Shown here: in pieces, positions 17,273 through 34,482 of the stretch | Layout of the letters: each line of letters starts with the position of its first letter | Numbering within the stretch: position 1 is the first letter of the stretch | NCBI GenBank assembly: GCA_028284265.1 | Contig: JANQRZ010000019.1 | Span: 1-64,000 of the forward strand | Origin: Rhodothermales bacterium | GTDB taxonomy: Bacteria; Bacteroidota; Rhodothermia; Rhodothermales; JANQRZ01 | DNA length: 64,000 nt | Direction of reading: 5' to 3' | Program-made: the position numbers and the translations under genes | The notes under the pieces: generated by a model | Databases searched by the model: none | What the model was told of the DNA's origin: nothing | Seen by the model: the letters and a program-made list of their open reading frames with translations, nothing else

Positions 17273-18303
17273 AGGCGAAACAGCCGGATCGGGCGCCCGT
17301 TCCACGCATCATGGATACCACCAGAACAGAGACCGTGCGCGATGTCATCATCGTCGGGGCTGGCCCCATCGGCCTGGCCTGCGCTGTCGAGGCGAAGCAA
17401 GCTGGGCTCGATGCTCTCGGCATTGAGAAGGGCGCACTCACCAACTCACTCCTCGGCTATCCGACCGGGATGGAGTTTTTCTCGACGCCGGACCTGATCG
17501 AGATCGGCGGCTACCCCCTCATCGCCCGTGGCTACAAGCCGCTCCGCGAAGAGGCGCTCGACTACTACCGCCGCGTGGCTGAGGTAGAGAAGCTCGACGT
17601 GCACCTCTACGAGCAGGTGATCCGCGCCGACGGCGAGACTGGCGCCTTCACGGTCGTGACGAATAAGGGGGCCTATCCCTGCCGTGCGGTCGTCATCGCC
17701 ACGGGTTTCTATGACATCCCGAACCTGATAGACGTGCCTGGAGAAGACCTACCCAATGTCTCGCACTACTACAAAGAGCCGTACCCCTTCAGCGGCCAGA
17801 AGCTCGCCATCATCGGAGCGAAGAACTCGGCGGCCCTCGCGGCGCTCGACTGCCTCCGGCACGGGGCTGAGGTGACGTTGGTGATCCGCGGCCCGGAGGT
17901 CGGACCGAGCGTCAAGTACTGGATCCGCCCCAACCTCATCAACAGGATCGAGGACGGTAGCATTACAGCCTACTTCAACACCACCATCAAGGAAATCCGC
18001 CCGGCCTCCCTCCTCCTCGACACGCCGGAAGGCGAGCGCGAGATTGCCAACGACTGGACGCTCGCCCTGACTGGCTATCGCCCGAACTACGCGCTCCTCG
18101 AACGGCTCGGTATCGCCTTCGAGGGACCAGCCCGCAAACCCGTCTACGATCCCGACACGATGGAGACCAACCGACCGGGGCTGTACCTCGCCGGAACCGT
18201 CTGCGGCGGTCTCAACACGAGTGAGTGGTTCATCGAAAATGGGCGCGTCCACGCTCGTCAGATCATGCAGCACCTCGCCGCCCGCGACTCGGTCGCGGCG
18301 TAG
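17269..18303 (+). CDS. ypdA: YpdA-family bacillithiol disulfide reductase-like flavoprotein
   Basis: The 344-residue protein is a thioredoxin-reductase-like FAD/NAD(P)H enzyme. The FAD Rossmann motif DVIIVGAGPIGLA is near residue 26-38, and a second dinucleotide motif (LAIIGAKNSAALAALD) is near residue 180. There is no CxxC redox pair, as expected for YpdA, which reduces bacillithiol disulfide (known in Firmicutes). The family stretch GYPTGMEFFSTPDLIEIGG is intact. The start overlaps the tadA stop as ATGA; an internal ATG at 17311 gives a product nearer to the usual 330 residues. A CGC-type bacilliredoxin at 51.8-52.3 kb is a plausible partner. It converges with the GNAT gene with 3 bases between stops. 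Confidence 0.88.
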   Translation: MKAKQPDRAPVPRIMDTTRTETVRDVIIVGAGPIGLACAVEAKQAGLDALGIEKGALTNSLLGYPTGMEFFSTPDLIEIGGYPLIARGYKPLREEALDYYRRVAEVEKLDVHLYEQVIRADGETGAFTVVTNKGAYPCRAVVIATGFYDIPNLIDVPGEDLPNVSHYYKEPYPFSGQKLAIIGAKNSAALAALDCLRHGAEVTLVIRGPEVGPSVKYWIRPNLINRIEDGSITAYFNTTIKEIRPASLLLDTPEGEREIANDWTLALTGYRPNYALLERLGIAFEGPARKPVYDPDTMETNRPGLYLAGTVCGGLNTSEWFIENGRVHARQIMQHLAARDSVAA

Positions 18304-18306
18304 CGA

Positions 18307-18807
18307 TTACGCTAGCGCCAAGACCATGTACCGGCAAGGACCAACTTCAGGCTCCTGATATTCCCGGAACAGCCTGAACCCGAGCTTCTCGGCGGCCCGA
18401 ATCGCCCGCTCGTTCGAGACTGAGGTTCCGATGCCTGCAAAAGAAACGTGAGGGTCGGCACGCAAGCGAGCCAGCAGCAACGGTCCAAGGCGAGGCCCGA
18501 CTCCCTGCCCCATAGCCTCCGGCTCACCAAGAAAGACATCGATATCCACCAGCCCGTCGGGGAGGTCTGTCAGGCCCACCGCGTTCATCTCCTCAGGACC
18601 AAGTCGCTGCCAGCACACGTAGCCGATCGGGGCACTATCAACGGTAATGATGGCATGCTGCTCCGGCGGGTGCCCCAACGCATCGCCCAGCCGCTCTTCG
18701 GGATCACCCCACCACCTCGCCACATGCGGTTGGCGCAGCCAATGCCGGAGTGTGACTTCATCCGACGCTGGATTGAAGGGTCTGAGTGCTACCTCTGGCA
18801 TCGACAT
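18307..18807 (-). CDS. GNAT acetyltransferase resembling aminoglycoside 6'-N-acetyltransferases
   Basis: The 166-residue protein begins MSMPEVALRPFNPASDEVTL. The WLRQPHVARWWGDPEE and DIDVFLGEPEAMGQGVG blocks are typical of the AAC(6')-like branch of GNATs. Motif A (Q/RxxGxG/A) appears as MGQGVGPRLGPLLL, and the C-terminal NERAIRAAEKLGF is also standard. It transfers an acetyl group from acetyl-CoA to an amine; the substrate is not predictable, and siderophore-type acetyl/acyl transferases share this signature. An ATG two codons downstream is equally possible. It follows the heptaheme-TPR gene by 19 bases on the same strand. Confidence 0.82.
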   Translation of the reverse strand: MSMPEVALRPFNPASDEVTLRHWLRQPHVARWWGDPEERLGDALGHPPEQHAIITVDSAPIGYVCWQRLGPEEMNAVGLTDLPDGLVDIDVFLGEPEAMGQGVGPRLGPLLLARLRADPHVSFAGIGTSVSNERAIRAAEKLGFRLFREYQEPEVGPCRYMVLALA

Positions 18808-18826
18808 CGTCGGGTTTGCTCCTATC

Positions 18827-20977
18827 TCACCGCAACGCGTCAATCACTTGCCGCGCCACCGCTTGTCCGGGGTCAAGGCCAAGCGCACCCTGGGCGTAAC
18901 GCCGCGCCTCGGTGGCATTGCCAAGCTGGAAATAGGCCACCGCGAGGTTGGCGGCGACATCGGCCCGGCCCGGCGCAGCGACCGTGGCACGCTCCAAGAT
19001 TTCGACGGCATCGCGGACGGCCCCACGCTGAAGGTGATACGTCCCGAGGTTGCTCAAAGCGTTCGCGTCATCCGGTCCGGCATCGACCGCCCGGCGAAAG
19101 AGGTCCCCTGCTGCGGTTTCCTCTCCGCTACTCGCCCGCACGATCCCGAGATTGACGAGCGCGTCCACATAATCGGGCTGCAAGTGTATAGCTTCTTTCA
19201 AATGCTCCACGGCCTCGTCCGGCGCGCTGCCGAGACGCAGCAGAGCTGTGCCGAGGTTGTAGTGCGCCGACGCTAACCAAGGCTCATCCTCAATGGCAGC
19301 ACGGTATTCACGGGCGGCGGCTTCGACCCGACCCTGCGTTTCTAGGAAGCGTCCGTAGTTGATGCGAACGTCGGCTAGCGCAGGCTGAACGGCGAGCGCC
19401 TCCCGATAAAGTCGCTCGATCTCGGCAGGCGAACCGCCGGTAGCTTCATAGGCTTGAGCCAGCGCGTTGAGCCGCTCCGGCACGTTCGGCTTCAGCCGAA
19501 TCGACTCTCGCAGCGCAGGAATAGCCTGCTGCATCTGGCCCCGTTTCATACGGGCAAATCCAAGGAGGTAATGCCCCTCGCTCAGGTATGGTGCCTCCGG
19601 GAGCGTTCGCTCCAAGGCCGCGATGCCCTTATCTAAGGCTTCGACATCGCCTTGCTGGCGACCGTAGATGACATAGGCCATGCCCTCGTAGACGGCCCCT
19701 TCAGACCCCGAGGCGTCGCGCGGGAAATAGCTCGCCAGCTCGACATTATCGTTTTCCTCGGCCATGCCCTCTAGCCGGTCTTCAGCACGGACAACCCGGA
19801 TGTAGTGGTCCGTGAACGATGAGTGCGGCGCGTCCTCTGCCTCGACCTTCGGCATATGGCAAGCGAAGCAGTTGGCCTCCGCTTCATGCTGGCTGCGAAG
19901 CTCGAGCGTTGGCATCAAGGCTTGCAGCGGAGCGGGCGCGTGACAGTCCTGACAGGTGGCGTTGAAGTACGTTGGTCCTTTGTCTCGGAACCCCTCATGC
20001 GGGTTATGGCAAGTCGTGCAGTCCATCGCGCTCGACTCGATGAAGCAGGCGCTCTGCTTCATCCGGTCGGCGTGGGAGATGACGCTGATGGTGCCAGGGC
20101 GGGTAGCCTCCACATCGAAGTGGGCAACGTGGGCGGCGAGGGGCTGAGAGGGTATGTAGCCGAACGCCTCCTTGCCTTCTCGCAGAATAGAGACGGTTCC
20201 GTTGAGGTGGCACTGCTGGCAGACGTCGAGCCGGAGATCGAGACTCAGATGCGCGGGATTGACGATGGTGTAGTCGACCGAGTCGGCAGCTTCTGGATCC
20301 ACAAGGCGTGCCTCAATATGCACTGAGCCGGGACCGTGGCATCGCTCGCACCCGATGCCATCGGCAATCGTTGTGTAAGCTCCTTCGACGAATGAGACCG
20401 GCTCGGAGAATCCATTGTGACAGGCCATGCAGCGCGCTGGAATCGTCCGGTCGAACCGCCCATTCGCTTCGCGATAGCCGGGACTAAAATCCCAACGACC
20501 GGCCCCTCCGTCAGCCTGTGTGTACCACGTCAGTGGCAATTCGTAGTAGGTACTACCCTGCGCCGTGAGGTAGGTCCGCGCCGCCGTTCCGCTCCCGACG
20601 ACAAAGTCCATCCGCCGGACCAGTTGGTGGGTCTTCTCCCCACTCGTCGTCTGTCGGTACTCTTCCTGATAAAACGCCCCATCGCGCTCGTAGGCCGTGT
20701 AGTAGAACCCGCTGCCCTCGTGGTAAAGCACGGGATTGCCGAAATCCTCGACCGCCCGCTCCGGCGTGAGGGCGTAGAGCGACTGCGCCATCCCGTGCGC
20801 CTGATAACTCATGTAGAGGTCTTCGTGGCACGAGGCACACGCTTCGTCCCCAACGTAGGCTGCTCCCTCAATGTTCTGGTAAACCGCTGCCGCGGCCTCC
20901 CCAGAAGTCGGCTCCTCCGTGCCCCCGCACCCGGCAGCCACGAAGGCGAGAAGAAAGAGGCTGGCTCTCAGGCGCAT
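18827..20977 (-). CDS. Heptaheme cytochrome c lipoprotein fused to TPR repeats
   Basis: The 716-residue protein starts with a lipoprotein signal (MRLRASLFLLAFVAAGCGG). The first 400 residues carry seven CxxCH haem-binding motifs: CASCH at residues 47-51, then CMACH, CERCH, CQQCH, CTTCH, CQDCH and CFACH. The spacing and the NPHEGFRDKG and CFACHMP contexts resemble the multihaem cytochrome c554/NrfA-like group often found joined to TPRs. From about residue 430 to the end there are roughly seven TPR units (for example EAIHLQPDYVDALVNLGIV). It should be anchored on the periplasmic or surface side and take part in electron transfer with protein partners held by the TPRs. A terminator and a PorV-like gene lie directly upstream; the Ccm genes elsewhere in the window could load its haems. 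Confidence 0.9.
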   Translation of the reverse strand: MRLRASLFLLAFVAAGCGGTEEPTSGEAAAAVYQNIEGAAYVGDEACASCHEDLYMSYQAHGMAQSLYALTPERAVEDFGNPVLYHEGSGFYYTAYERDGAFYQEEYRQTTSGEKTHQLVRRMDFVVGSGTAARTYLTAQGSTYYELPLTWYTQADGGAGRWDFSPGYREANGRFDRTIPARCMACHNGFSEPVSFVEGAYTTIADGIGCERCHGPGSVHIEARLVDPEAADSVDYTIVNPAHLSLDLRLDVCQQCHLNGTVSILREGKEAFGYIPSQPLAAHVAHFDVEATRPGTISVISHADRMKQSACFIESSAMDCTTCHNPHEGFRDKGPTYFNATCQDCHAPAPLQALMPTLELRSQHEAEANCFACHMPKVEAEDAPHSSFTDHYIRVVRAEDRLEGMAEENDNVELASYFPRDASGSEGAVYEGMAYVIYGRQQGDVEALDKGIAALERTLPEAPYLSEGHYLLGFARMKRGQMQQAIPALRESIRLKPNVPERLNALAQAYEATGGSPAEIERLYREALAVQPALADVRINYGRFLETQGRVEAAAREYRAAIEDEPWLASAHYNLGTALLRLGSAPDEAVEHLKEAIHLQPDYVDALVNLGIVRASSGEETAAGDLFRRAVDAGPDDANALSNLGTYHLQRGAVRDAVEILERATVAAPGRADVAANLAVAYFQLGNATEARRYAQGALGLDPGQAVARQVIDALR

Positions 20978-21021
20978 AGCTGTTGGTATCACGACGCAGC
21001 GTTGGAAACGTAGATCAGGTC

Positions 21022-21065
21022 ACCAAAATAAACAACGGGGTGAGCCGTTGACGGCCCACCCCGTT
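21022..21065 (-). terminator. Rho-independent terminator of the PorV-like gene
   Basis: Stem AACGGGGTG/CACCCCGTT (21034-21042 with 21057-21065), followed on the minus strand by TTGTTTATTTTGG. It lies 30 bases past the stop at 21095 and separates that gene from the heptaheme-TPR gene. Confidence 0.8.
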
Positions 21066-21094
21066 AGATACAACGGTGGTATCAGCGAGACTGC

Positions 21095-22132
21095 TTAGAG
21101 CGTGAAGCTCACCGAGAACATGTTGACGCCGCTGAACACGTTGGAGGGGCGGTAGGTGTAGTCCACCGCCAGCCCGCGTCCGATCATGTTCAGGTTCAAG
21201 CCGGCTCCAATGTTCCACACTTCCCATGCGCTCACGTCCGAGTCGGTTGTGAGGTTGAGACCGCTACGCACGAAGAAGAGGTTCTGGTAGCCCAGTTCCA
21301 CACCGGCAGCGTACTGATCGAGGTCGTAGGCATTGGAGCGGAAGTTGCCCAGCACGGTCGCCGTGAGGTCACCCGCGAACTGGCGCGTGTAGGCCACGCC
21401 GAAGTTCAGGAGCGAGGGCAACTCAGCGCCGAGGTCATCAATCGTACCGGCAATGTTCCCCTGCCCGCCCGGGCCGTCCTGGATGATCGGCGTGTTGAGG
21501 CCGTCACCGCTGAACTCCATCTGCGGGCCGAAGTTCTTCAGGCTGACGCCGAAGCGCAGGCCGCTCTCGCCAACGATGTAGGTCATTCCGGCATCGAAAG
21601 CAATCCCGTTCGAGCTTACGTTGTCGATCCGGCGACCGAGTCCTTTGAACGTGACACCTGCCGCGATGCGGTCGGTGAACTGCCGTGCAAAGGTGGCCCC
21701 GAGCACGATCACGGAGGCGTCCCATGTGAGACTCGGGTCAATCTCCGGGTTGGCTTCGGTCTGGCGAGCAATGTCGCCATAGTCCCACGACGTGAGCGTC
21801 AGCGCAATGTTGTTGTTGCCAAAGCGCTGCGCAATGCCGAAGTAGTTGATGCCGATGTCCGCCAGGTACTCCGTGCGGCTGAACATGGCGTTGGTGCTGT
21901 TGTTCACCATGAGCGCGGCAGGGTTGCTCTGCACGGCTTCGACGCCGCTCAGGTTGTTCATGCCGCTGGTGAGTGCAGAGCCGAGCGCCACGGTGCGTGG
22001 CGTGATCGGCACGAGCAGTTCTTCCATCGCCGCCGTGCCAGATCGGTCGTCTCCCTGTGCGAGGGCATCAGGGGCACAGAACCCGAGGAGGGTTGCGACC
22101 AAGACGCTGGCTGTGAGAAGGTTGATCTTCAT
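21095..22132 (-). CDS. PorV/PorQ-family outer-membrane beta-barrel protein
   Basis: The 345-residue protein has a signal peptide (MKINLLTASVLVATLLGFCAPDALAQ) and the PorV/PorQ opening: LLVPITPRTVALGSALTSG with the downstream VEAVQSNPAAL. Alternating hydrophobic/polar strands run to the C-terminal aromatic-rich NMFSVSFTL. In characterised T9SS, PorV is the shuttle that receives cargo from the translocon, and members of the wider family occur beside dedicated cargo. It starts 45 bases after the 1219-residue secreted protein, so the two are likely co-expressed and may form a cargo and barrel pair (inference). Confidence 0.88.
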   Translation of the reverse strand: MKINLLTASVLVATLLGFCAPDALAQGDDRSGTAAMEELLVPITPRTVALGSALTSGMNNLSGVEAVQSNPAALMVNNSTNAMFSRTEYLADIGINYFGIAQRFGNNNIALTLTSWDYGDIARQTEANPEIDPSLTWDASVIVLGATFARQFTDRIAAGVTFKGLGRRIDNVSSNGIAFDAGMTYIVGESGLRFGVSLKNFGPQMEFSGDGLNTPIIQDGPGGQGNIAGTIDDLGAELPSLLNFGVAYTRQFAGDLTATVLGNFRSNAYDLDQYAAGVELGYQNLFFVRSGLNLTTDSDVSAWEVWNIGAGLNLNMIGRGLAVDYTYRPSNVFSGVNMFSVSFTL

Positions 22133-22177
22133 ATCAGGATTCCGGTTTGGGATGACGTGATTGCGTCACGGTCAGGT

Positions 22178-25100
22178 TTAGAAGACGGAGATTCGGGTCC
22201 GCCGGTTGACGACGCCGAACTTGAGCACCTTCTCTCCGATACCGGGGGCATCGACGTGGATCAGGTACATGCCGCTTGCGACAGGAAGCTGGTTGTGGGT
22301 GTTGAGGTCCCAATCCAGCGACCGGGCCGGGCCGTCCTTGCGGAGCGTGCGGATGAGCGTCCCCGACACCGTGTAGATGCGAATCGTCACCTCGTCCGGC
22401 AGGTTGATGAAGCGAGCGATGCGGTCGAGGTTGTCCGTCTCGTAAGCCGAGACACCCATGTAGGGGTTCGGCACGATCCCGATCAGGTCGAGCGCGTCTT
22501 CCGCCGCTTCCGCAACACCCGTCTGGAACGCGAAGTCAGCCGTGTTGAACTCGACAGCGTCCCCACTTGCAAGCGCGGGCTTGGGCGAGGTGCGGAAGAG
22601 GATCGTAGTCCCCGCGTCCGGCGTGGTGCCATCTCCTGCGAGGTCCGCGATGATCATACCGTCGAGGCCACCGATCGGTGCAACAAAGCGAGCATCGCCG
22701 CCCTTGTAGCAGTAGTCGATGTAGGCACCCTGACTGCGTGAGTTGCACTCTTTGTCTACCTGATCATCCCCATCGTTCTCGCGGTCGTAGGTCCCACCGG
22801 GGCCGCCGAACAGGTTGTTCGCATCAGCAGCGAAGAGGTCATAGCCGTTCGGGCGGTCCGGCATCGTCCACAGGACCCGGTGCGAGATACCCAACTCGAG
22901 GGTTTCGTTCGTGATCGCGGTCGGCGACACCACGTCAACGGTGACCTCCTGTGTTGAGGTGTAGGCATCTTCCCAGTTGGTGACCGGGTCGTCGCCGCTG
23001 GGCGCACGCAGGATGGGGATCATCCGGATATCATCATCGGCGAAGCCGCCGTTGACGTTTCCGACGTTCCACAACTCGAAGGGCACGCTGGCAATCAGGT
23101 CGTTGCCACCGGGGACAGCCGAGGCGTAGATGCCGAGGCAGGCTCCGGGCGTAGCACACGCTTCGGTGAAGCGCATCTCGAAATCGTCCGGCACAGCCTG
23201 CTCAATGTTACGTGCGAGGTCGCCGAGATCGTTATCCGGCGCGGTCACGACGTAGTCGCCGGTGCTGTTGGCGTTGAGCCAGACGGAGTTGCCGCCGAGG
23301 TAATCGACGAACCGGCAACCGATGTCCGAGTCGCCCGCATTGGAGCCGCAGACTTCGGCATTCGAGTTGGCCGTCTCAACGATCCCATAGGTATTGCCTG
23401 CCGCCGTAAGGCCAGCGAAGTTGGCCCCAGCGTCAGCATCACCGGTGAACGCGGCAGGAATCTCCTGAGGCAGCGTCTGGGTGAACTCGATTCCGTCAAC
23501 GATGATGCGCTGCTCGTCCGAGCGGATAACACCCCGTCCGCTATCGAAGGCGTTCTGGCCATCGAAGACACTTTGCCCATCGCGGAGGATGCGGAAGGTG
23601 CTCTCCAGCGAGTCTGGGTCGCCGGTAACGCCCGAGTCAAAGTCGAAGAATTCGACGCGGTACGTGGCACCGGTGACTTGTGTCGGAGCTACGACCTCTG
23701 CTACGACGGTGGCATTACCAACACCCGCCGTGCGCGTACCCACGATGAGGTCGCCGAGGTTCGCGTTCTGCACCGACCCACTGTTGCCAGCCTGCACGTT
23801 CGCAGGCCGCACCGTGAGGTTAGTCGGCGCGCTCTCGATCACCTTGGGGACGGAGAACTCGTTGTAGGCATAGGCACTAACGCCGAAGTAGTAATCGGTG
23901 TAGTTGGTCAGCCCCAACTGTGACAGGTCGAAAGAGTACCGAACTCCACTGTCTTCGGCTATCTCAGTTGCGGGAGCAACGAAGGGCACGAGGTCACCGA
24001 TGGCTGGATCGAACGCCGTGTCGATCACTTGGGTCACGCCATTTATGACATCGTAGGTGGCGAGGAGTTCGCGGTCACTTTGCTCGAAGTTCGAGTTCGG
24101 GTACTGGTACACGTTGAACCCTTCGAAGTTGTAGAACTTGTCCGGGGCCACCGAGTCCGGCAGGGCCGCGATCAGTTGGTCAAAAATCTCGTAGCTGCCG
24201 AGATAGTTTGAACTGGTCTCGGGATAGCCCCACACCAAGGATGCCTGACCATTCACTTCAATGCCTTCGAGGCAGCCACCGCCACCTGGCTGCAGTGCCG
24301 CGTTGGGGCTGTTCGAGTCGCAAAGGGTCGGCGGCGGCGGCGCAGCAGCTAGCTCGAAGTCCGCGTCGTAGGCGGCCTGGGCGAGCGCGTCGGCCTGCCG
24401 CATCACATCAATAGAACTGAGGCGGTCGCCGCCTTGCCCGAAGACGATCCCGAAGACGATGTCTTGGGCCACGCCCTGCTCAAGGTCAAACGGGCCCGTG
24501 GTCACGAGGAAGCGGCGGTCACCCGATGGATTGGGGGTACCGCTTCCATCAGGGTTTTCTTCGCTCCAGAAATCGCCGCTTACAGGGTTTCCGGGGAACG
24601 CGAACAGGGTCACCTTACCGTCGGTCTGGTAGCCATCCCCCCCTTCGGTCATCGGTGTGCCATCGCCCCACAACCCCTGCATGAAGTTGTACTTCAGCGG
24701 AGCCGTGTCCGGGTCGCCAATGGCAGGATCAGCGGAGTTCTGGAAGTAGGAATACCGGGTCACGCCGAGGGTGTCATCGCGTTCGCCGTCCCCGTCTGCG
24801 TCCACGATGGGACCTTGGAAGAAGTCGTAACCGGTAGCAGGCGGAATACCGTAGACACCGTCAACGTCGGCCTCGTTGTAGACAAACCCGAGGCTAAGGG
24901 TCGTGTCCACCCCGACGAAATCGTCAGCCGCGTCGCCGAGGTCCGGGTCAGAGAAGATGGAGAAGAACGTCTCTTCGAGTGTACCGGGTGTCTTCTTGGT
25001 GATGGTGTACTTGTAAAACGTGACGTCATTGAGTGCGTCGGCACGGGCGAACGAGAAGGCGAGCACCTGAGCCTCAACGCCGATGGGCGGACTTTGGCTC

Positions 25101-25837
25101 TCAAGGTGTGTGTTGCCCATGTCATTCATCACCCACCACAAAGCCTGGTTGCCGATAATCTCGGGACGGTCACCACCGTTGAGGTCGTAAATAGGCCGAC
25201 CGGCTGCCTGACGAACGCTGGCAACCGCCCGCTCGCGCTCGTCTCGTTCATCGATAAAGCCGTCTCCGTCGTTATCGATCTGGTCCTCGCCTTCATCGGT
25301 GAGGCCATCTCCATCGTCATCGAAACCGTTCCCGGGCGCAGCGAAAACTGGAGCACCTAGCTCGGCAGGCCACTGGGCCAAGTCAGCCGTTGCGGGCAGC
25401 CCTGCCTCAAAGTTGCGAATATCCACTTCGCTGACTTTGTAGATGCGGTCGAACTCGCTACAGTCGTTCGGGTTGGGAAGCGTCCCATCATCATTGAGCG
25501 GACCGGGCCAGAACTCAAAGTCATCGTACCGGGAGCCAGCTGTGACAACGTTGCCGTCGACCATGCCGCCAATCCAAATGCCACTAGCGAAGATCGGCGG
25601 GTTACCGGAGGCTTGCGGGACGAGGTACCCGAGCCCGTTAGTGGTAGAACCACCGTAGAAAAGGCTGCCCGTGTTGAACATGCGGGCGAGCACATTGTTG
25701 ATGTCGAGGTCTTTTTCAGCCTGACCAAGCAGGCAGGACCCAGGAGTCGGGGCCTGACTGTAGGCCTGCGGTGCCGCCCCTAGCAGGAGAGCGAGAAGCA
25801 GGAAAAGGGAGGTCGTATAAGATCGCATGCGAGCCAT
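22178..25837 (-). CDS. Large secreted T9SS-type protein with calcium-binding-like DxDGDG repeats
   Basis: The 1219-residue protein has a signal peptide (SLFLLLALLLGAAPQAYSQ). An N-terminal block around GIWIGGMVDGNVVTAGSRYDD is one I know only as recurrent in Rhodothermaeota/Ignavibacteria-type surface proteins. At about residues 170-205 there are thrombospondin type 3-like runs (FDDDGDGLTDEGEDQIDNDG), and another run appears as DADGDGERDD. Fibronectin III-like sections occupy the middle. The end contains GIVPNPYMGVSAYE, VTIRIYTVSGTLIRTL and SGMYLIHVDAPG, a T9SS type A-like domain with an atypical last strand. A second ATG three codons downstream is better placed relative to a GGAG. Its neighbours are a TonB receptor upstream and a PorV-like barrel downstream. 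The function is unknown; it is probably a surface-exposed accessory or ligand-capturing protein. Confidence 0.85.
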   Translation of the reverse strand: MARMRSYTTSLFLLLALLLGAAPQAYSQAPTPGSCLLGQAEKDLDINNVLARMFNTGSLFYGGSTTNGLGYLVPQASGNPPIFASGIWIGGMVDGNVVTAGSRYDDFEFWPGPLNDDGTLPNPNDCSEFDRIYKVSEVDIRNFEAGLPATADLAQWPAELGAPVFAAPGNGFDDDGDGLTDEGEDQIDNDGDGFIDERDERERAVASVRQAAGRPIYDLNGGDRPEIIGNQALWWVMNDMGNTHLESQSPPIGVEAQVLAFSFARADALNDVTFYKYTITKKTPGTLEETFFSIFSDPDLGDAADDFVGVDTTLSLGFVYNEADVDGVYGIPPATGYDFFQGPIVDADGDGERDDTLGVTRYSYFQNSADPAIGDPDTAPLKYNFMQGLWGDGTPMTEGGDGYQTDGKVTLFAFPGNPVSGDFWSEENPDGSGTPNPSGDRRFLVTTGPFDLEQGVAQDIVFGIVFGQGGDRLSSIDVMRQADALAQAAYDADFELAAAPPPPTLCDSNSPNAALQPGGGGCLEGIEVNGQASLVWGYPETSSNYLGSYEIFDQLIAALPDSVAPDKFYNFEGFNVYQYPNSNFEQSDRELLATYDVINGVTQVIDTAFDPAIGDLVPFVAPATEIAEDSGVRYSFDLSQLGLTNYTDYYFGVSAYAYNEFSVPKVIESAPTNLTVRPANVQAGNSGSVQNANLGDLIVGTRTAGVGNATVVAEVVAPTQVTGATYRVEFFDFDSGVTGDPDSLESTFRILRDGQSVFDGQNAFDSGRGVIRSDEQRIIVDGIEFTQTLPQEIPAAFTGDADAGANFAGLTAAGNTYGIVETANSNAEVCGSNAGDSDIGCRFVDYLGGNSVWLNANSTGDYVVTAPDNDLGDLARNIEQAVPDDFEMRFTEACATPGACLGIYASAVPGGNDLIASVPFELWNVGNVNGGFADDDIRMIPILRAPSGDDPVTNWEDAYTSTQEVTVDVVSPTAITNETLELGISHRVLWTMPDRPNGYDLFAADANNLFGGPGGTYDRENDGDDQVDKECNSRSQGAYIDYCYKGGDARFVAPIGGLDGMIIADLAGDGTTPDAGTTILFRTSPKPALASGDAVEFNTADFAFQTGVAEAAEDALDLIGIVPNPYMGVSAYETDNLDRIARFINLPDEVTIRIYTVSGTLIRTLRKDGPARSLDWDLNTHNQLPVASGMYLIHVDAPGIGEKVLKFGVVNRRTRISVF

Positions 25838-25867
25838 CTCCGTAGTTGGTGGAGTGGGAGAGTCGTT

Positions 25868-25912
25868 CAGGAAAGGAAGAGGCAGGAGGCGGCCTAGGCT
25901 ACCTCCTGCCTC
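25868..25912 (-). terminator. Probable terminator after TonB receptor 1
   Basis: A perfect 11-bp stem (GAGGCAGGAGG at 25879-25889 with 25902-25912) lies 10 bases past the stop at 25922. On the minus strand it is followed by a T-rich but broken tract (TTCCTTTCC). It may attenuate rather than end transcription into the 1219-residue gene. Confidence 0.6.
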
Positions 25913-25921
25913 ACAGGCTGC

Positions 25922-28900
25922 CTAGAAGTCCAGCAGGAAGCCGAGGCGGATACGCCGGGGCGGTCCGTAGAAGAAGCCACCGCCGGAGGACTGGCTTCCG
26001 CCGATGTTGACCGGGCCGCTGATGTAGGCGTCGTAGTTGAAGAAACGACCATCAGAGAACGGCGCATTGTTCAGGTACGTCGTCCCACCGGGCGTGAAGA
26101 GGAACCCGTCTTGGTCTGCAAGGCCTGTGGCCCGGTAAACCGCAACGATGTTCTCCGTATCCAGCAGGTTTTGGACCCAGAGATAGGCCTTGAGACGCGC
26201 CCCACCGAAGCCGAGGTCGAAGCCACGGTCGATCCTCAGGTCGATCCGCGACGTAGCGGGCAAGGTCTCGCTGTTAACTTGGCCTGCCACTTCACTCGTG
26301 AACGACTGGTTCACGTCGAAGAGTGCCGATTCGAGCGGCGTGTAGCGCTGACCGCTCCCGAAGGAGGCGAGAATGTTGACGCCGAAGTTCTCGAGGATGC
26401 GGGCACCGCCGAGCATCGGCCCTTCGTCCGCACCGAAGCGGTAGTCCAGTGATACGTTGCCGGTGTGGCGCTGGTCGAAGTCCGCCGGGCTAATGAAGTT
26501 CGGGAAGAACTGCCCGCGCCATACCACGGTCCCGGTCGAGGCCGCGTCCGAACCCGTGCCACTCGCAAACGAGAGGGTGTAGTTCGTGTTGATGGACAGG
26601 TTGTTCGTCCGCCGCAGGTCGAACCCGACCTCAACACCCTTCGTCGTGGTGAAGTCGGCGTTGAGGAAGGTGCCGTACTCCGGCTGCGCGCCAAAGAGCG
26701 TGCGGTTGGAGATTTTGTTCTCCTGTGTCCGGTAGAACCCGGAGAGGGTGAACGCAGCCCGCTCGCCTACGCGCTGGCGGAAGCCCAGTTCGTACTGCGT
26801 CGTCCGCTCCGGCTCAAGAGCCGAGTTGGGCGTGCGCGAGTCCTGACCAGTGATCTCCTCATAATCGCTGAACGGCGTGAAGGAGCGTTCGGTCGGGCGC
26901 TGGGTCGTGACGTTGTAGCTGGCGAAGAAGAGCGCCCGGTCCGTTACCGGGAAGCTGACCCCAACGCGCGGCATGAACGTCGCCTGCGGCGTGTAGTCGG
27001 TAAAGGCGGCCGAGCGAGGCGCTTCGGTATCCGGTTGCACTTGGCCTGAGAGATCGCCTGCAATGATGGCGGCGGTGGTAGCGACACCTTGGGTATCGAA
27101 GAAGTTGCCTTCGAGGTCGCGGTAGCCGACTACATCGCCCGCGTCATTGAAGTAAACGGCGTAGTCACTTCCAATCCCGGACGGCACATCCCCTTGGCTA
27201 CCAGCACGCACAATCGGTGTGACAGCGAACGGATCGAGGAGGACCTGCGTGTTGTTGTCAAAGACATCAACGCGGAGGCCAAGGTTGATCACGAGATCCC
27301 GGAATTCGATTTTGTCCTGCACATAGCCAGCGTAGTAGATCGGCTTGTACGGAGCGATGTTGAGGTTCTCCCGGTTGAAGTAGCCGTCAATGTCCTGATC
27401 GTCTACCTCATTGAGGCCAAGGAAGTCATACCCATAACGCTCAGGGGTAATGCCACGGACGGCCTCAAAGGGAAGCTCGTCGTAGGAGCGAACGCCGCCG
27501 TCAGGAAGTCCCTGAACAGTCGACTCCGTGTTGCCGTCGTTGTAGAAACGAGAGAGCGAGGCCGCAGCAATGCGGAAGTACCGCCGGGTCTGCTGCTCGA
27601 ACTCGCCACCGAACTCGACTTGGTGGACGCCAAGCTGCGTCGTCGCGCTACCGGAGAAGCGGATCTGCTGATCGTGTGCCTGCTGGAACTGCGTGAGCTG
27701 GGCACCCGGGAGGTTGAACGTACCACCTACGCCGCCGGGACGAGGACCGCCGTCTTGGTCAAATACCTGCTGGTACTCGCCATTTCGGAAGACGAAGTAG
27801 TTGCGGGCGATCGCGTGGTAGTCACCGTCAATGTCGCCATAGAAGAGCGCGTCTTCGACCTGATCGGAAAAGCCTTCAGGGTACTGGACATACTGGAAGT
27901 CCTGGTACTCACCCTGAATCTGGTAGAAGGCGTTGTCCGAGAGACGCTGGCGGAACGTGCCGTAGACACGCCAGCTATCCCGCTTGTCGTTGTAGAACCG
28001 ATCACGGTTGTAGAGCGAGTTCGTGAAGGTGAACTCCTCTCGCCAGTTCGTTTCATAGCCACCGCCGATTCGGAGACTAAGGGCACTCGAGATGTTGAAG
28101 TTCAGGTTGCCGTTGAGCGTGTAGTTGTTCTGCGGCGCATCCTTGCCACGCTCCAAGCTGAACCGGTCGGCCAGATAGGTTTCCGGCGCGTTGATCAGGA
28201 AGTTGTTCCCGGCGATCTCAAAGCCGTCAGGAATCTGCCCCCCCAAGAGAAGCGCGAGGCTGTCGTTGTCAATCCCAGCGCCCGTGATGAGGGCCGGGTC
28301 GAATGGGATGAACTGCTCATCGCCCGCCGCATTCACGAGGCGGAGCACCTGCGGGTTGCTCTGGAGGAAGGCAAAGTCCTCGTCCGAGAGACGGTAGGTG
28401 TCCACGCTGTACGTGTTGTAGTCGGACTCGAAGGTGCCCTGCCCGGAGACGAAGAAGCTCGCCCGGCCCGGCACAATCGGACCACCGATGGAGAGCGAAC
28501 CCAAGTTGTAGCCGTAGGCGTCGAGCACCTCGGAGGTGATGAACTCGGCCGACCCAAAGAAGTCGCTACGACCGGTTTTGGTGGTGATCGAGATGACACC
28601 GCTCTGCACGTCGCCGTACCGAGCCGGGATCGTCCCGATCAGCATTTCCTGCTCGGCGATGGCGGCTTGGTTCACACCCACCGACGCGCCAATGCCTTCC
28701 GGCGACTGGCCCGTGACCTTGACGCCATCCACGTAGTAGGCGACCTCTTGGTTACGACCACCACGGATGAAGAGGTCATCGCCTCGGCTGTCACCGACGA
28801 CGCCGTTCTGGATCGCCGCCACGTCCTGCACGCCCCGGATGGGGAGGTTGGCGATGTCTTCGCCTGAGATCACGCGGGGTGCGCCGATGGCGTCCTTCTG

Positions 28901-29263
28901 GATGATCGGGCGCTCATAATCGACGACGATCTCGCCGAGCACATTGTCGCTGCCCAACTCGAAGTTCTGCTCGGTCGTGTAGCCGGACGAGATCGTGACG
29001 CCTTCGACCGTCTGGGACTGGAAGCCCACAAACGAAGCCGTAACATCATATTGACCGACCGGAACGCCGATGACAAAGTAGTTGCCGTCAATGTCCGTTG
29101 CGGCACCGAGCTGTGTGCCGTCGATGATGACGTTGGCACCCGGAAGCGGATCCCCCAAATCATCGACGACGCGGCCTGACAGTTTGCCGGTGTTCTGCGC
29201 CACTGCTGCGAGCGGCGTAGCCAGCAGCAGCAGGAGCACGAGTGTACCCAGGTTGCGAAGCAT
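25922..29263 (-). CDS. TonB-dependent receptor with carboxypeptidase-regulatory-like N-terminal domain (receptor 1)
   Basis: The 1113-residue protein has a signal peptide (LVLLLLLATPLAAVAQ). A carboxypeptidase-D-regulatory-like domain at about residues 28-105 is seen as LSGRVVDDLGDPLPGANVII and DGNYFVIGVPVGQYDVTAS. The plug is at about 115-240 (ANLPIRGVQDVAAIQNGVV, DDLFIRGGRNQEVAYYVDG), and the 22-strand barrel ends in an aromatic residue. It is a SusC-like importer that takes up a large or complexed substrate with TonB/ExbBD energy. No SusD-like gene is adjacent. A strong SD-like GGAGGAGGT precedes the ATG, unusual in this window and suggesting high expression. It has a shortened paralogue directly upstream. 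Confidence 0.93.
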   Translation of the reverse strand: MLRNLGTLVLLLLLATPLAAVAQNTGKLSGRVVDDLGDPLPGANVIIDGTQLGAATDIDGNYFVIGVPVGQYDVTASFVGFQSQTVEGVTISSGYTTEQNFELGSDNVLGEIVVDYERPIIQKDAIGAPRVISGEDIANLPIRGVQDVAAIQNGVVGDSRGDDLFIRGGRNQEVAYYVDGVKVTGQSPEGIGASVGVNQAAIAEQEMLIGTIPARYGDVQSGVISITTKTGRSDFFGSAEFITSEVLDAYGYNLGSLSIGGPIVPGRASFFVSGQGTFESDYNTYSVDTYRLSDEDFAFLQSNPQVLRLVNAAGDEQFIPFDPALITGAGIDNDSLALLLGGQIPDGFEIAGNNFLINAPETYLADRFSLERGKDAPQNNYTLNGNLNFNISSALSLRIGGGYETNWREEFTFTNSLYNRDRFYNDKRDSWRVYGTFRQRLSDNAFYQIQGEYQDFQYVQYPEGFSDQVEDALFYGDIDGDYHAIARNYFVFRNGEYQQVFDQDGGPRPGGVGGTFNLPGAQLTQFQQAHDQQIRFSGSATTQLGVHQVEFGGEFEQQTRRYFRIAAASLSRFYNDGNTESTVQGLPDGGVRSYDELPFEAVRGITPERYGYDFLGLNEVDDQDIDGYFNRENLNIAPYKPIYYAGYVQDKIEFRDLVINLGLRVDVFDNNTQVLLDPFAVTPIVRAGSQGDVPSGIGSDYAVYFNDAGDVVGYRDLEGNFFDTQGVATTAAIIAGDLSGQVQPDTEAPRSAAFTDYTPQATFMPRVGVSFPVTDRALFFASYNVTTQRPTERSFTPFSDYEEITGQDSRTPNSALEPERTTQYELGFRQRVGERAAFTLSGFYRTQENKISNRTLFGAQPEYGTFLNADFTTTKGVEVGFDLRRTNNLSINTNYTLSFASGTGSDAASTGTVVWRGQFFPNFISPADFDQRHTGNVSLDYRFGADEGPMLGGARILENFGVNILASFGSGQRYTPLESALFDVNQSFTSEVAGQVNSETLPATSRIDLRIDRGFDLGFGGARLKAYLWVQNLLDTENIVAVYRATGLADQDGFLFTPGGTTYLNNAPFSDGRFFNYDAYISGPVNIGGSQSSGGGFFYGPPRRIRLGFLLDF

Positions 29264-29695
29264 ATGCTACCTCCTCCGAGATGGTAATGCGGTGTTGAGA
29301 GTTGAGCCTAAGCCGGAAGGGCCATTGGCTCCACATTGGCTAAAGGTGTGCGCTGAGGACTACCACTTGCAGCCTTGGCTGCGAAGCGAAACGCTGTGCC
29401 GACCACGATTCCCGGGCGGCCCGGCTGCCGAGCATCGCGTGCGATGCCGGTGGATGGCAGGGGGCGAGAGTAGAAAGGATCGTAGCAACAGCAGATGGCG
29501 GGTTCCTCAAATGGGCGGTTCGACTGGTGGTATTTAATCGTTCCGTAACGCGGTGGCGAATATAGGCGGGGCCTTCGGAAGATGTCAAGGCACTCTGCGT
29601 GCCCTTCATCTGGACCGCATACGAAACGGGCTATATGAGGCGTTGTGGACAGATGGTCCGTCGGTTTTTGCCCGGCGGCAGCATTGCCCTTGCAC
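29264..29695. other. Gene-free 432-bp spacer between the two TonB receptors
   Basis: It probably holds the promoter and leader of receptor 1. I see no clear terminator for receptor 2, no RNA gene and no convincing small ORF. Confidence 0.45.
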
Positions 29696-32600
29696 CTACA
29701 GCGTCACACGGAGACCGAATCGAACGAGGCGAGGCGGCCCGTAGGAAAATACGCCGTTCGTGCTTTGGGTACCGCCAATATTAACTGGGCCGCCGATATA
29801 CGCAAGGTAATTAAACGTCCCCCCTACCGGGTCCGGTGTATTGTTTATGTATGTCTGCCCGCCCGGCGTAAGGAGGAACCCATCGTCGTCCGGCTCGCCC
29901 GTCGCCCGGTAGAGTGTCAGGGCGTTCTCCGTACCGAGCACGTTCTCGATCCACAGAAAGCCGGTCAGGGTACTCGGCCCGATGCGGAACGCTTTGTCGA
30001 GCCGAAGATCGAGTTGCTTGGTCCACGGGCGACGCATTGCGTTGATCATGCCACTCGTCTCGCTCGTGAACGGGTCGTTCGGGTTGAAGAGCGCAGACTG
30101 AAGTGCGGTGTAGGGCAGTCCGCTCTGGGCGGAATAGACTACGCCCAGCCCGAGGCCGCCGAGAATCGGGCCGAAGGCCTCGCCGAATCGGTAGTCCGCC
30201 ACGAAGTCGAGCACGTGCCGCACGTCGAAATCGGTCGGAGACTCGAAGTCCGGGAAATTGCTTCGCCAGACGACTGTGCCCGTCGAGGCTGCATCGGCAC
30301 CGGTGCCGTTCGCAAACGAGAGGACGTAGCTCGCCCGCAGTGCCAGCCCATGCGTCCGGGCGAGCACCCCATTTAAATCAAAGCCATAGACTGAGGCTGT
30401 CCCGATGTTCAGCGAGGTAGCGTATTCGGGCCGAGCACCGACTAGCACCCTCGACTGGATGAGATCGTGGTGTCGTCGGTAAAACAGGGTCCCGCGCACG
30501 CGCACGCCGCCGACGGGCTGGCCCTCCGCCCCGAGGCCGAAGTCATCCACAATCTCGGGATCGAGCCCGGCGTTGCCGACTCGGTCCTGACCAGTCACAT
30601 CCTCATAGATAGGGAATGGTGCGTAGAGCTGGGGCGAAGGCCGACGCGCCATGCGCCCGTAGTAGGCGAAAAGACCCAGTTGCTCCGACAAGTCGAACCG
30701 CATACCCAACCGAGGCTGCACCACCACATCCGTCGGGTCCGACTCGAAGGCCGCCGACCGAGGCTCGCCCGTGCCTTCGACCTGGCCGGAGAGTTCGCCC
30801 CTGATGAAGAAGGTGGTGCTCTCCTCACCGGCGGCATTATAGAACAGCCCGTCCAGATCGCGATAGCCGACTACGTCGCCCGCGTCGTTGAAGTAGACAG
30901 CAAAATCGCCGCCGATCCCATCCGGTCGCATGGCGAGGGCAGACGCCCGGACAATCGGAATGGTGACGAAGGGATCGAGCAGCACGTTCGCGTCGCTGCC
31001 GAAGGCTTCCACCCGTAGGCCAAGATCGAGTGTCAGCCGATCGAAGGCGATACGGTCCTGGACGTAGCCCGCTATATAACTGGGCTGATAGGGCGCTACA
31101 TCAAGGTTCGTCCGGTCGAAGTAGGCGTCCACATCTTCGCTATCGGTCTCGGACAGCCCACGGAAGTCGTAGCCATAGCGTAGGAGTGTGATGCCGCGCA
31201 AGGCCTCGAACGGAAGCTCGTCGTAGGAGCGCGCTCCACCTTCGGGCAGCCCGTCCATCGTGCTCTCTACCTCACCATCGGCGTAGAACCGGGCGAGGCT
31301 CGCACCTGCGAGCGCAAACTGCCGGTGCGTCTGCCGCTCAATTTCGCCACCGACTTCGACCCGGTGCGCGCCGAGTTCGAACGTCGCCCCACCATGCACA
31401 CGAAACGCAGAGCCTTCTCCCTTTCGGAAGATGGTCAATTGAGCGCCCGGCAGTGCGAACGTACCGCCGACTGTTCCGGGCCGCGATCCACCGTCTTGCG
31501 TGTAGACCTGCTGGTACTCGCCGCTGCGAAAGACGAAGTAGCGTCGCGCAATCTCGTGGTAGTCGCCATCGATGTCGCCGTAGAAAAGCGCATCCTCCAC
31601 CTGATCGGAGAATGCACGCGGATGCTGGACAAAGCTCGAACGCTGTCCTTCGAATTGAATATGATAGGCCGCCCGGTCGCTAGGCTTGTAATCTAGCGCC
31701 GCGTAGAACTGGCTGGCGTCACGCTCGGCCCGGTAGAGCTTGTCGCGGTTGTAGAGCGCGTACCTGAACCGCTGCGCTGGATTCGATGTCCGGTCGAGTT
31801 GGTCGCGGTAGTAGCTCCCGCCGAGCCGGAGGCGGAGCGACGGCATAAGGTTGATGACGGCGCTGCCATCGAGCGCGAGGGCATCGAGCGGATCATCTTT
31901 GCTGCGTTCTAGCTCGAATCGGTCTGCCGTGTAGGTCCGGGGAGCGTCGATCAGAAAGTTGCGCTCGGCGATCTCAAATCCATCAGGCACGTCAACGAGC
32001 GCGAGCAGCGCCTCTTGGGTCAACGGTTGCCCAGCGGCTTGAGCTTCCTGCGCGGCCTGCCATGGGAAAGGGAGATAACGCGCTTCGCTTCCGTCCCCGT
32101 TGACTACACGGACCACCTGCGGGTTGGCGAGAAGGTCGGCATAGGCCTCGTCCGTGAGCCGGTAGGTCTCGATGCCATACGGCGTGGCATCGGCGAGGCG
32201 GCGCACTTCACCAGACAACGCGAACCGTCCGAGCCGGGTATTCCCGAGCGGTCCGTGGACAGCGAACGATCCGAGGTTGTAGCCGAAAGCGTCGAGACCC
32301 TCGGAGGTGATGCCCTCGACCCGACCGCCGTAGCGTCCGCTTCCCTCTCGGGTCTCGACGAGGACTAGCCCACCGGCCGCCTCGCCGTAGCGCGCCGGGA
32401 TATGCCCCGTCACGACCTCGATACGTTCGACGGCCTCGAAGGGTACCGCTGGCTCTCCGATTACACGTACACCATCAATCACGAACGTAGGCTCCTGTCC
32501 GACGCGCTCCCGGTCGAAGGCATTGCCTTGGAATGAGGCAAGGCCGGTCAGGTTGGAGACGGTACGCAGACTCGGCGAGGGCGTGCCGAGGTATGATCGG

Positions 32601-32830
32601 TAGAAGAGTGTCCCATCGCCGAGCCTGCGATTGACACCCGGCAGGAGCGCCGCCACATCGCGCACGGATCGTATGGGAAGCCCGTCGAAGCCGGGGCCCG
32701 CTCCGTCGCTACGTGTCCAGACGGAGAGGTCGAGCGAGTCGGCCCGCGATGCGTCCGATGCGGGCTGCGCGGCGAGCGGTGCGGCGACGAAGAGGAGAAG
32801 CAGAAGACGGATCGTCACAGAAAGAACCAT
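29696..32830 (-). CDS. TonB-dependent receptor lacking the regulatory-like domain (receptor 2)
   Basis: The 1044-residue protein has a signal peptide (MVLSVTIRLLLLLFVAAPLAAQ) followed almost directly by the plug (GLPIRSVRDVAALLPGVN, EPTFVIDGVRVIGEPAVPFE, GHIPARYGEAAGGLVLVETR). The carboxypeptidase-regulatory-like domain of its neighbour is absent. The barrel is clearly paralogous to receptor 1: both have a block ending QVEDALFYGDIDGDYHEIAR (receptor 2) or QVEDALFYGDIDGDYHAIAR (receptor 1), and both have GTFxLPGAQLTxF and GARSYDELPFEALRGIT-like segments. An ATG 45 bases upstream (32875) is an alternative start, 23 bases after the serA stop. It probably imports a related but different ligand. 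Confidence 0.9.
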   Translation of the reverse strand: MVLSVTIRLLLLLFVAAPLAAQPASDASRADSLDLSVWTRSDGAGPGFDGLPIRSVRDVAALLPGVNRRLGDGTLFYRSYLGTPSPSLRTVSNLTGLASFQGNAFDRERVGQEPTFVIDGVRVIGEPAVPFEAVERIEVVTGHIPARYGEAAGGLVLVETREGSGRYGGRVEGITSEGLDAFGYNLGSFAVHGPLGNTRLGRFALSGEVRRLADATPYGIETYRLTDEAYADLLANPQVVRVVNGDGSEARYLPFPWQAAQEAQAAGQPLTQEALLALVDVPDGFEIAERNFLIDAPRTYTADRFELERSKDDPLDALALDGSAVINLMPSLRLRLGGSYYRDQLDRTSNPAQRFRYALYNRDKLYRAERDASQFYAALDYKPSDRAAYHIQFEGQRSSFVQHPRAFSDQVEDALFYGDIDGDYHEIARRYFVFRSGEYQQVYTQDGGSRPGTVGGTFALPGAQLTIFRKGEGSAFRVHGGATFELGAHRVEVGGEIERQTHRQFALAGASLARFYADGEVESTMDGLPEGGARSYDELPFEALRGITLLRYGYDFRGLSETDSEDVDAYFDRTNLDVAPYQPSYIAGYVQDRIAFDRLTLDLGLRVEAFGSDANVLLDPFVTIPIVRASALAMRPDGIGGDFAVYFNDAGDVVGYRDLDGLFYNAAGEESTTFFIRGELSGQVEGTGEPRSAAFESDPTDVVVQPRLGMRFDLSEQLGLFAYYGRMARRPSPQLYAPFPIYEDVTGQDRVGNAGLDPEIVDDFGLGAEGQPVGGVRVRGTLFYRRHHDLIQSRVLVGARPEYATSLNIGTASVYGFDLNGVLARTHGLALRASYVLSFANGTGADAASTGTVVWRSNFPDFESPTDFDVRHVLDFVADYRFGEAFGPILGGLGLGVVYSAQSGLPYTALQSALFNPNDPFTSETSGMINAMRRPWTKQLDLRLDKAFRIGPSTLTGFLWIENVLGTENALTLYRATGEPDDDGFLLTPGGQTYINNTPDPVGGTFNYLAYIGGPVNIGGTQSTNGVFSYGPPRLVRFGLRVTL

Positions 32831-32898
32831 TCGCTGAGTGAGGGCGAGGAAGCTAAACCCCCACCTCTTACACATACAACCCAGCTTCCGCTGACCGA

Positions 32899-34482
32899 TC
32901 AGACGTGGACGACGCGCACGTCCTTTACCCCCTCAATGGCCTCGACCTGTCGCACGACCTCAGGCGGAACCGGATCATCCAAACCGATGGCGGTCAGCGC
33001 CGTCTCGCCGGGGCGGTCCCGCCCGAGCGCAAGCGAGGCGATGTTGATGCCCGCCTCGGCCAGCAGCCCCCCGACCGTGGCAAGCATCCCCGGCCGATCC
33101 ACATTCTGATAGAACAGGATGTGCCCTTCAGGCTTCGCCTCGAACCGGAATCGGTCCAGCCCGACGAGTCGCGCATCATCTTCTCCAAGCACGGTGCCTG
33201 CCATCGAGCGCGTCCCAGAATCAGTTTCCAGCGCCACCTCGATGAGGTCCGTAAAGTCGGCGGGTTCGGAGTGGCGCTGTTCCTCGATAGCCAACCCCAT
33301 TTCGCGGGCGAGGGCCGGGGCGTTGATGAGGTTGACTGGTTCGTCGCTCCAGCGGGCGAGGAGACCACGCAGTGCGGCGACGGTCAGCACTTCGGCGTAG
33401 CGCCGGGTGGTCTCGCCGTAGCAGCCGACGGTGACGCGGCGCACCTGCCCGTCGGCGATCTGGCTGACGATCTGCCCAAGCCGGTCGGCGAGGTCGATGA
33501 ACGGGCGGGCCTCGGGCTGGGCGGCAGCACGAATGGCCCCGGCGTTGACTGGCGTCGAGACCGGACGCCCGTGGAGGGCTTCGATGACCTGCTCGGTGAC
33601 TTGCCGGGCGACTTTCTGCTGGGCCTCATCGGTCGAGGCCGCGATGTGCGGCGTGGTCACGACCCGCGGGTGGCGTACCAAATCATTGAGTGTGGGCGGT
33701 GGCGGCTCTTGGCTGTAGACATCGAGCGCGGCTCCGCCGACCTTGCCACTTTCGAGCGCCCTTAGCAACGCCGCTTCGTCCACAATCCCGCCTCGCGCAC
33801 AGTTGACGATCCGCACACCATCGCGGCAAGCCGCTAGGCTCTCGTCATTTATGAGGTGGCGAGTCGCCTCGTTGAGCGGTGCATGAAGCGTGATCACATC
33901 GCTCTCAGCCCATAGTCCGTCGAGGTCCACAAGTTCGACCCCGATCCGCTCGGCAGCCTCGGATGAAAGCACCGGGTCAAAGCCGATAAGCTGCATCCCA
34001 AAGCTCTGCATCCGCCGCGCCACGGCCCGACCGATCTTGCCAACGCCGACGATCCCGAGCACCTTGCCATCGAGTTCGGCACCGGAGAACTGCTTTCGCT
34101 CCCACGCGCCGCCCTTGAGCGAGGCTGCTGCCTGCGGAATCTGCCGGGCGAGCGACAGGATCATCGCGCACGTATGCTCGGCGGTAGAGATCGTGTTGCC
34201 ATCGGGCGCGTTGAGGACGAGGATGCCCCGCCGTGTCGCCGCCGCGAGGTCGATGTTGTCCACGCCGACCCCCGCCCGTCCGATCACCTGGAGGTTCGGG
34301 GCCGCCTCAATCATCTCGGCAGTCAGCTTTGTGCCGCTTCGGACAATCCAGCCGTCGGCGTCGTGCGCGAGCGCCTTCAATTCCTCGGGCGATTGTTTGA
34401 GGTAGACGGCGGCCTCGATTCCGGCCTCCTCTAGCAACGTCTGGCAGATTGGATCGAGGTTGTCGGTGACGAGAACTTTCAC
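32899..34482 (-). CDS. serA: D-3-phosphoglycerate dehydrogenase
   Basis: The 527-residue protein oxidises 3-phosphoglycerate with NAD+, the first step of serine synthesis. The substrate and nucleotide domains contain GRAGVGVDNIDLAAA, the Rossmann motif GIVGVGKIGRAVARR, the Arg motif IVNCARGGIVDEAALL, the Glu region ALDVYSQEPP and the catalytic His in TTPHIAASTDEAQ. An intermediate (ASB-like) domain follows at about 320-445. A C-terminal ACT domain (ILFYQNVDRPGMLATVGGLL) is the site of serine feedback in related enzymes. The start is a GTG reading MKVLVTDNLDP; the longer frame has no family resemblance upstream. It lies downstream of engB with 60 bases between. Confidence 0.95.
   Translation of the reverse strand: MKVLVTDNLDPICQTLLEEAGIEAAVYLKQSPEELKALAHDADGWIVRSGTKLTAEMIEAAPNLQVIGRAGVGVDNIDLAAATRRGILVLNAPDGNTISTAEHTCAMILSLARQIPQAAASLKGGAWERKQFSGAELDGKVLGIVGVGKIGRAVARRMQSFGMQLIGFDPVLSSEAAERIGVELVDLDGLWAESDVITLHAPLNEATRHLINDESLAACRDGVRIVNCARGGIVDEAALLRALESGKVGGAALDVYSQEPPPPTLNDLVRHPRVVTTPHIAASTDEAQQKVARQVTEQVIEALHGRPVSTPVNAGAIRAAAQPEARPFIDLADRLGQIVSQIADGQVRRVTVGCYGETTRRYAEVLTVAALRGLLARWSDEPVNLINAPALAREMGLAIEEQRHSEPADFTDLIEVALETDSGTRSMAGTVLGEDDARLVGLDRFRFEAKPEGHILFYQNVDRPGMLATVGGLLAEAGINIASLALGRDRPGETALTAIGLDDPVPPEVVRQVEAIEGVKDVRVVHV

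Follow-up and report, generated by a model that had tools for sequence, protein, structure and literature searches.

What does a bacterium build when it encodes, in succession on one strand, a TonB-dependent receptor, a very large secreted protein and an outer-membrane barrel of the PorV family? The question is raised by a 64,000-nucleotide stretch of DNA (the window) on contig JANQRZ010000019.1 of a Rhodothermales bacterium. An initial annotation had described a surface module of two TonB-dependent receptors (TBDR1 and TBDR2), a giant secreted protein, a PorV-like barrel and a lipoprotein combining seven haem sites with tetratricopeptide repeats (TPRs), followed by a GNAT acetyltransferase. 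All six open reading frames (ORFs) were confirmed on the minus strand at the positions first given, and ORFs and family models bear out their order and families. Coordinates below are positions within the window; loci (L), genomes (G) and families (f) carry comparison labels. It is near certain that TBDR2, the giant and the barrel represent a conserved, so far unnamed three-gene outer-membrane module. On balance, we favour the view that a surface protein exported by the type IX secretion system (T9SS) would be kept above a TonB-dependent receptor by a PorV-type barrel of its own, much as in SusCD, with no SusD involved.

Conservation and predicted transcription of the triad

The triad begins with TBDR2 (25922-29263, minus strand; 1113 aa), which carries CarboxypepD_reg, Plug and TonB-dependent barrel domains according to Pfam. 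The giant follows (22178-25837, minus strand; 1219 aa), with an N-terminal hydrophobic segment and a divergent, type-A-like T9SS C-terminal domain extended by an extra tail. The PorV-family barrel (21095-22132, minus strand; 345 aa) starts after an intergenic gap of 45 nt.

A profile scan of named genomes returned 476 relatives of the giant, and 75 loci among them were examined; these loci were chosen by the giant and not by its neighbours. Testable loci were defined as those with a giant of at least 900 aa and flanking room on both sides (n=58). In 44 of the 58, the giant has a receptor as its immediate upstream neighbour and a PorV-family barrel as its immediate downstream one, with intergenic gaps between -119 and +148 nt. 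The triad spans at least five phyla: Rhodothermota, KSB1 (L128), Calditrichota (Caldithrix, L147), Neomarinimicrobiota (L141, L152) and Ignavibacteriota (Melioribacter and others; L134, L139, L142, L143, L150, L153). Because of this 44-locus synteny the module in the window exceeds chance, and TBDR2, giant and barrel keep their order in distant genomes, which the initial annotation had named, for at least three of its five genes, as support for a system. A literature search, with most subscription papers and bioRxiv outside its coverage, found no publication naming this triad.

Transcription signals bracket exactly these three genes. A promoter-like site matching the consensus (TTGACA-18-TATATT; 29559-29588, minus strand) lies upstream of TBDR2 and is the sole sigma-70-like match within 18000-33200. 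It recurs ahead of TBDR2 in L061 and L062, and in slightly altered form in L067 and L064. Some 295 nt (29264-29558) separate it from the TBDR2 start, possibly as a long leader, and have no Rfam match. Between the barrel and the haem gene lies a strong terminator-like hairpin (21033-21066, minus strand) of 15 pairs followed by a T-rich stretch, TTTATTTTGG; this intergenic region folds at -43.5 kcal/mol (z -4.9). Similar hairpins follow the barrel gene in L061, L062 and L067, and no counterpart was found in L064. Both signals are consensus or fold matches and not mapped transcript ends, and the predicted transcription unit is TBDR2-giant-barrel, with the haem gene outside it or reached by read-through.

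The remaining genes of the window stand in looser relation to the triad. TBDR1 (29696-32875, minus strand) matches Plug and barrel family models, lacks the CarboxypepD domain and is 52% identical to TBDR2; its start lies at 32875, the 32830 first reported being the next in-frame ATG. Among the loci read it was found in L061 and L062, and is thus limited to the window's own family. Receptors of window-type triads form one clade (support 1.0, FastTree), within which TBDR1 is a long-branched sister of TBDR2. TBDR1 is a local, family-level duplicate outside the conserved triad. A further fragment was seen in L060 (7151-7591), where a free-standing ORF of 146 aa is 73% identical to the signal peptide and CarboxypepD domain of TBDR2 and stops before the Plug; it is a relic or else a gene for that domain on its own. 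The GNAT acetyltransferase gene (18307-18843, minus strand; Acetyltransf_8, PF13523) is a bystander, missing from the corresponding place in L061 (same genus) and L062 (same family). Its absence from close relatives, together with the hairpin after the barrel gene, rules out a single operon of all six genes. What survives of the five-gene module with its acetyltransferase is therefore the triad, joined, in Rhodothermales only, by the haem gene.

A separate barrel clade and a divergent sorting signal

The window barrel belongs to the PorV/PorQ family (NF033709; 114.8 bits against a cut-off of 90) and matches the solved PorV structure 6h3i by profile. It falls below the PorV/PorQ equivalog cut-offs of NF033710 and NF033711 (31.2 against 250 and 92.5 against 220 bits, respectively). 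Genomes of relatives with any such protein contain 3 to 18 PorV-family matches each. Gene neighbourhood had defined three groups in advance, and a maximum-likelihood tree built from 100 PorV-family proteins recovered each as a clade: the window type, T (47 rows, support 100/100); M, from triads in glycan loci (21 rows, 97/83); and N (four rows, 100/99). Canonical PorV is separate from all three, and the window barrel lies outside the canonical clade. N-clade loci show a design of their own, in which a receptor and a PorV-family barrel accompany a lipoprotein of 409-448 aa (L193, L206, L216, L051) that carries an NHL repeat where scanned; each lies near a secreted protein of 589-733 aa.

The giant is equally distinctive at its C-terminus. 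The type A domain models TIGR04183 and PF18962 have no match in it at E<=1e-3, and it is not among the listed type A matches of its own genome, which number at least 150. That genome also encodes SprA, PorU and canonical PorV. Residues 1104-1211 weakly match the C-terminus of PorZ, a T9SS component, and no other model identifies the protein. In an AF2 model (mean pLDDT 75, pTM 0.64) the C-terminal domain has seven strands, and two features of a type A cargo, a seven-strand C-terminal beta-sandwich and a genomic T9SS, are present. Foldseek likewise placed PorZ first, with a weak TM score; other weak and partial fold matches, to enzymes of glucosidase/phosphorylase type (the dextran dextrinase 9ju0, GH116, GH94) and to FN3 domains, are suggestive only, and sequence searches gave no convincing relative in the PDB. 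After the SGxY motif, all T cargos carry a tail of 27-33 residues, where M-type cargos and solitary paralogues have 19-21. This extra tail is conserved among T cargos, and profile scores also split them from the other groups. The giant has no lipobox. The DxDGDG repeats highlighted by the initial annotation do exist, but they do not define the protein, because they lie in an insertion that is missing from most family members and badly modelled; as its working part they were dismissed.

Paralogues of the giant occur without a partner barrel. Solitary copies in the same genome (C14, C19, C20, C23) have a standard type A end and no such triad. Tandem arrays were seen in the same genome (L054 6241-14349, three members) and elsewhere (L129 110-13166, seven; L145 77-11803, four); several members end in a standard type A signal, no PorV gene adjoins, and the arrays might represent a variable surface repertoire.

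To our knowledge, work on the T9SS treats PorV as the sole shuttle for all type A cargos, and pairing is known only for type B. The association of one large secreted protein with its own PorV-type barrel, pointed out at the outset, is nevertheless real, as synteny and the T clade attest, and a private shuttle or anchor role of the T barrel is likely. The giant would be exported through Sec and then the T9SS, and would fold outside the cell. Its own barrel, and not canonical PorV/PorU, would accept the unusual C-terminal domain and tail, and because of this the giant would stay on the surface, kept there by a barrel anchor rather than by lipid or lipopolysaccharide (LPS).

Probable capture and import, and competing explanations

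Clues to what such an assembly might do come from its sister triads. Among the PorV-family neighbourhoods read (40 in relatives, and those of the window's own genome), the order receptor-cargo-barrel recurs; G037, for one, has nine instances. Against the giant profile, M cargos reach roughly 50-200 bits; since the C-terminal profile alone yields 38-80 bits, homology beyond the C-terminus is likely only in the higher-scoring ones. M triads have as neighbours GH10 and LacI (L194), alginate and chondroitin lyases (L191), GH13 (L192), GH3 with glucoamylase (L190), GH3, GH16 and GH2 (L205), and sugar-binding proteins (L187 and C2 of the window's genome), the enzyme classes being those for xylan, alginate, starch and beta-glucan. 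G114, G118 and G120, all of which hold M triads, have no SusD_RagB, and it is scarce in the window's own genome, where the SusD family PF07980 has a single match, on C23. Capture and import is therefore the best-supported use of the architecture, and for the window's triad an import role is probable by analogy. In this proposal a single transcription unit would supply three parts of one outer-membrane machine, with the giant as capture subunit for the adjoining receptor, which would import the ligand; the giant would thereby do for the receptor what SusD does for SusC. We infer a physical complex of the three proteins, with anchoring by the barrel and import by the receptor, and likewise the class of ligand.

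In Rhodothermales, a fourth protein may join in. The heptahaem-TPR lipoprotein (18827-20992, minus strand) combines a Cytochrome_C554 domain with many TPRs, and all features initially ascribed to it were confirmed: seven CxxCH motifs are present in the window protein and in 17 of 17 relatives examined, and the lipobox cysteine, Cys22, is invariant across 19 aligned sequences. In its haem domain it is similar to cytochrome c554 and to multihaem proteins. With seven haems, not ten, the protein stays below the decahaem DmsE and GSU2203 models (40 against 192 and 62 against 325 bits), and its fold search was dominated by TPR matches. An order-wide search with giant and haem protein, covering 114 genomes, found both genes on one contig and strand, separated by a PorV-sized space, in many Rhodothermales families. 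The haem gene follows the barrel gene in many Rhodothermales, and the full order TBDR2-giant-barrel-haem was seen in genomes of widely differing base composition (20 loci read); the triad lacks an adjoining haem gene in read members of f3, f14 and one f11 genus. Among 77 Rhodothermales genomes at least 90% complete, 46 have both triad and haem gene, 28 neither, three the triad only and none the haem gene only; p-values computed from these counts overstate the association, as thresholds were set after inspection of the data and the genomes are related and not independent. It also holds inside f3 (10 both, 5 neither), where triad and haem gene lie apart in the two genomes read (G012, G015); f8 is an exception, with triads and no haem gene. 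By gene order and co-occurrence, the haem protein is the Rhodothermales partner of the triad, and it may act in the periplasm on the imported ligand or with the receptor.

Side observations concern the same gene. It is tandemly duplicated in L074 (7862-11998), L076 (6889-11029) and L122 (13347-17305), with seven CxxCH in each copy of the first two. ASPIC/UnbV FG-GAP (CRTAC1-like) proteins adjoin the haem-TPR gene or the triad in f13 (L069, L070), and an M triad with TPR lipoproteins in G037 (L188, as scanned; L189 looks alike).

Several observations weigh against capture and import by the T triad. Giants with the same tail and no adjoining barrel occur in L117, L119, L120 and L126, although the metagenome-assembled genomes from which L119 and L126 come each have a triad as well (L124, L116). 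The haem gene lies beyond the terminator-like hairpin, outside the predicted unit. In the loci read, the T clade is never found beside glycan enzymes. Outside Rhodothermales, a GWxTD protein gene often comes next after the T triad (L130-L132, L134, L139, L143, L155, L210, L218), followed in some loci by LPS-synthesis genes: a lipid A acyltransferase, with a heptosyltransferase in L131, L134 and L155. An M23 peptidase and bactofilin lie farther on in L134. In Ignavibacteriota, T triads precede GWxTD and LPS-synthesis genes. The corresponding stretches run from 12291 to 15588 in L134 and from 8980 to 12497 in L210, and GWxTD genes of the window's own genome lie away from the triad (nearest C16:115.7 kb). 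Given such neighbourhoods, the task of the T clade may differ from that of M. The neighbours in other phyla, and the near single-copy, deeply conserved nature of the T triad, keep in view a complex that builds the envelope or forms a surface structure (S-layer-like or linked to LPS), whose receptor would transport an envelope component or signal rather than take up nutrients. We consider this unlikely: sister clades of the same architecture sit in catabolic loci, the triad's patchy absence in Rhodothermales speaks against an essential envelope role, and the LPS genes may simply happen to lie nearby, given that the Rhodothermales neighbours differ.

About as doubtful is the proposal of the initial annotation that the receptor system has as its ligand a metal complex or an electron acceptor, on which the heptahaem protein acts in the periplasm. 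The haem co-occurrence, which persists within f3, where the genes are not adjacent in the two genomes read, and the likeness to cytochrome c554 speak for it. However, triads exist with no haem gene in other phyla and in f8, the hairpin separates haem gene from triad, and the co-occurrence carries the bias described above. Rfam families such as the B12 riboswitch were found neither in the window nor in 15 related loci, which thus offer no RNA clue to the ligand. Of the suggested coupling, capture and import stand by analogy with M triads, and the link to electron transfer draws only on haem gene order and co-occurrence. It is still less probable that the giant is an ordinary cargo of canonical PorV/PorU and the adjoining barrel an independent, porin-like protein that is merely co-regulated. 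The presence of PorV, PorU and SprA in the genome and the seven-strand layout of the domain would fit, but the barrel's clade is distinct and accompanies a single cargo family from phylum to phylum with almost constant spacing, and the domain differs from the standard type A domain.

Comparison with known systems

The proposed capture by a T9SS-exported protein at a TonB-dependent receptor resembles SusC/SusD (RagA/RagB) in that a receptor is encoded beside a large surface partner and sister triads stand in polysaccharide loci. Unlike SusC/SusD, the triad has no SusD, its partner is of T9SS type, has no lipobox and precedes a PorV-family barrel, and the window receptor scores 53.2 bits against the SusC/RagA model TIGR04056 (cut-off 368). 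SusD and glycosidase models had no match on the six window proteins. An ordinary SusCD locus was accordingly ruled out, in line with the initial view that this is no ordinary polysaccharide-utilisation locus.

Also close is the published xylan locus of Rhodothermus marinus (Rmar_1067-1081; PMC6987092), to which the gene order in L194 corresponds and from which we infer that G037 is Rhodothermus. Shared are LacI, a TonB receptor, a C-terminal-sorted hypothetical protein, another hypothetical protein and GH10, the cargo and barrel positions being annotated as hypothetical (PMC6987092, Table 1). The locus differs in that these hypothetical proteins stand beside a true SusC/SusD pair and belong with the M and not the T clade.

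The triad suggests a design, so far unrecognised, for a capture-and-import machine at the cell surface. Across several phyla, individual clades of PorV paralogues keep company with specific cargos and TonB receptors, and sister-clade proteins in polysaccharide loci have so far been called hypothetical. More tentatively, and with somewhat less than even confidence, we suggest that receptor, T9SS-exported protein and private PorV barrel form a third general capture and import architecture in the wider Bacteroidota-like superphylum, parallel to SusCD. T, M and N, at least three PorV paralogue clades, would each shuttle their own cargo and then anchor it permanently, and PorV would be a set of anchors with specific cargos in place of a single general shuttle. 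If so, a substitute for SusD would have gone unrecognised in many glycan loci of Rhodothermota and relatives, annotation should name each PorV paralogue together with its cargo, and the added tail at the C-terminus would be a code for which barrel keeps which protein. Compared with canonical PorV and PorQ, the triad barrels are of the same protein family, but form a separate clade, one per cargo, below the equivalog cut-offs.

Finally, T9SS cargos with type B signals are secreted and anchored by way of cognate PorP/SprF barrels, and the shuttle pairing decides the destination of the cargo (PMC12618676, PMC9143113). Neither the type B domain TIGR04131 nor a PorP/SprF-family barrel was among the NCBIfam matches at E<=1e-3. 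As in SprB-SprF and PG1035-PorP, the triad places a dedicated barrel directly downstream of its cargo, 45 nt away in the window and recurrently in 44 loci; it differs in the family of the barrel (PorV), in a type-A-like C-terminal domain that ends in a tail, and in the TonB receptor encoded ahead of the cargo. By analogy, a distinctive signal matched to a distinctive barrel would parallel the pairing of type B cargos with their PorP/SprF shuttles.

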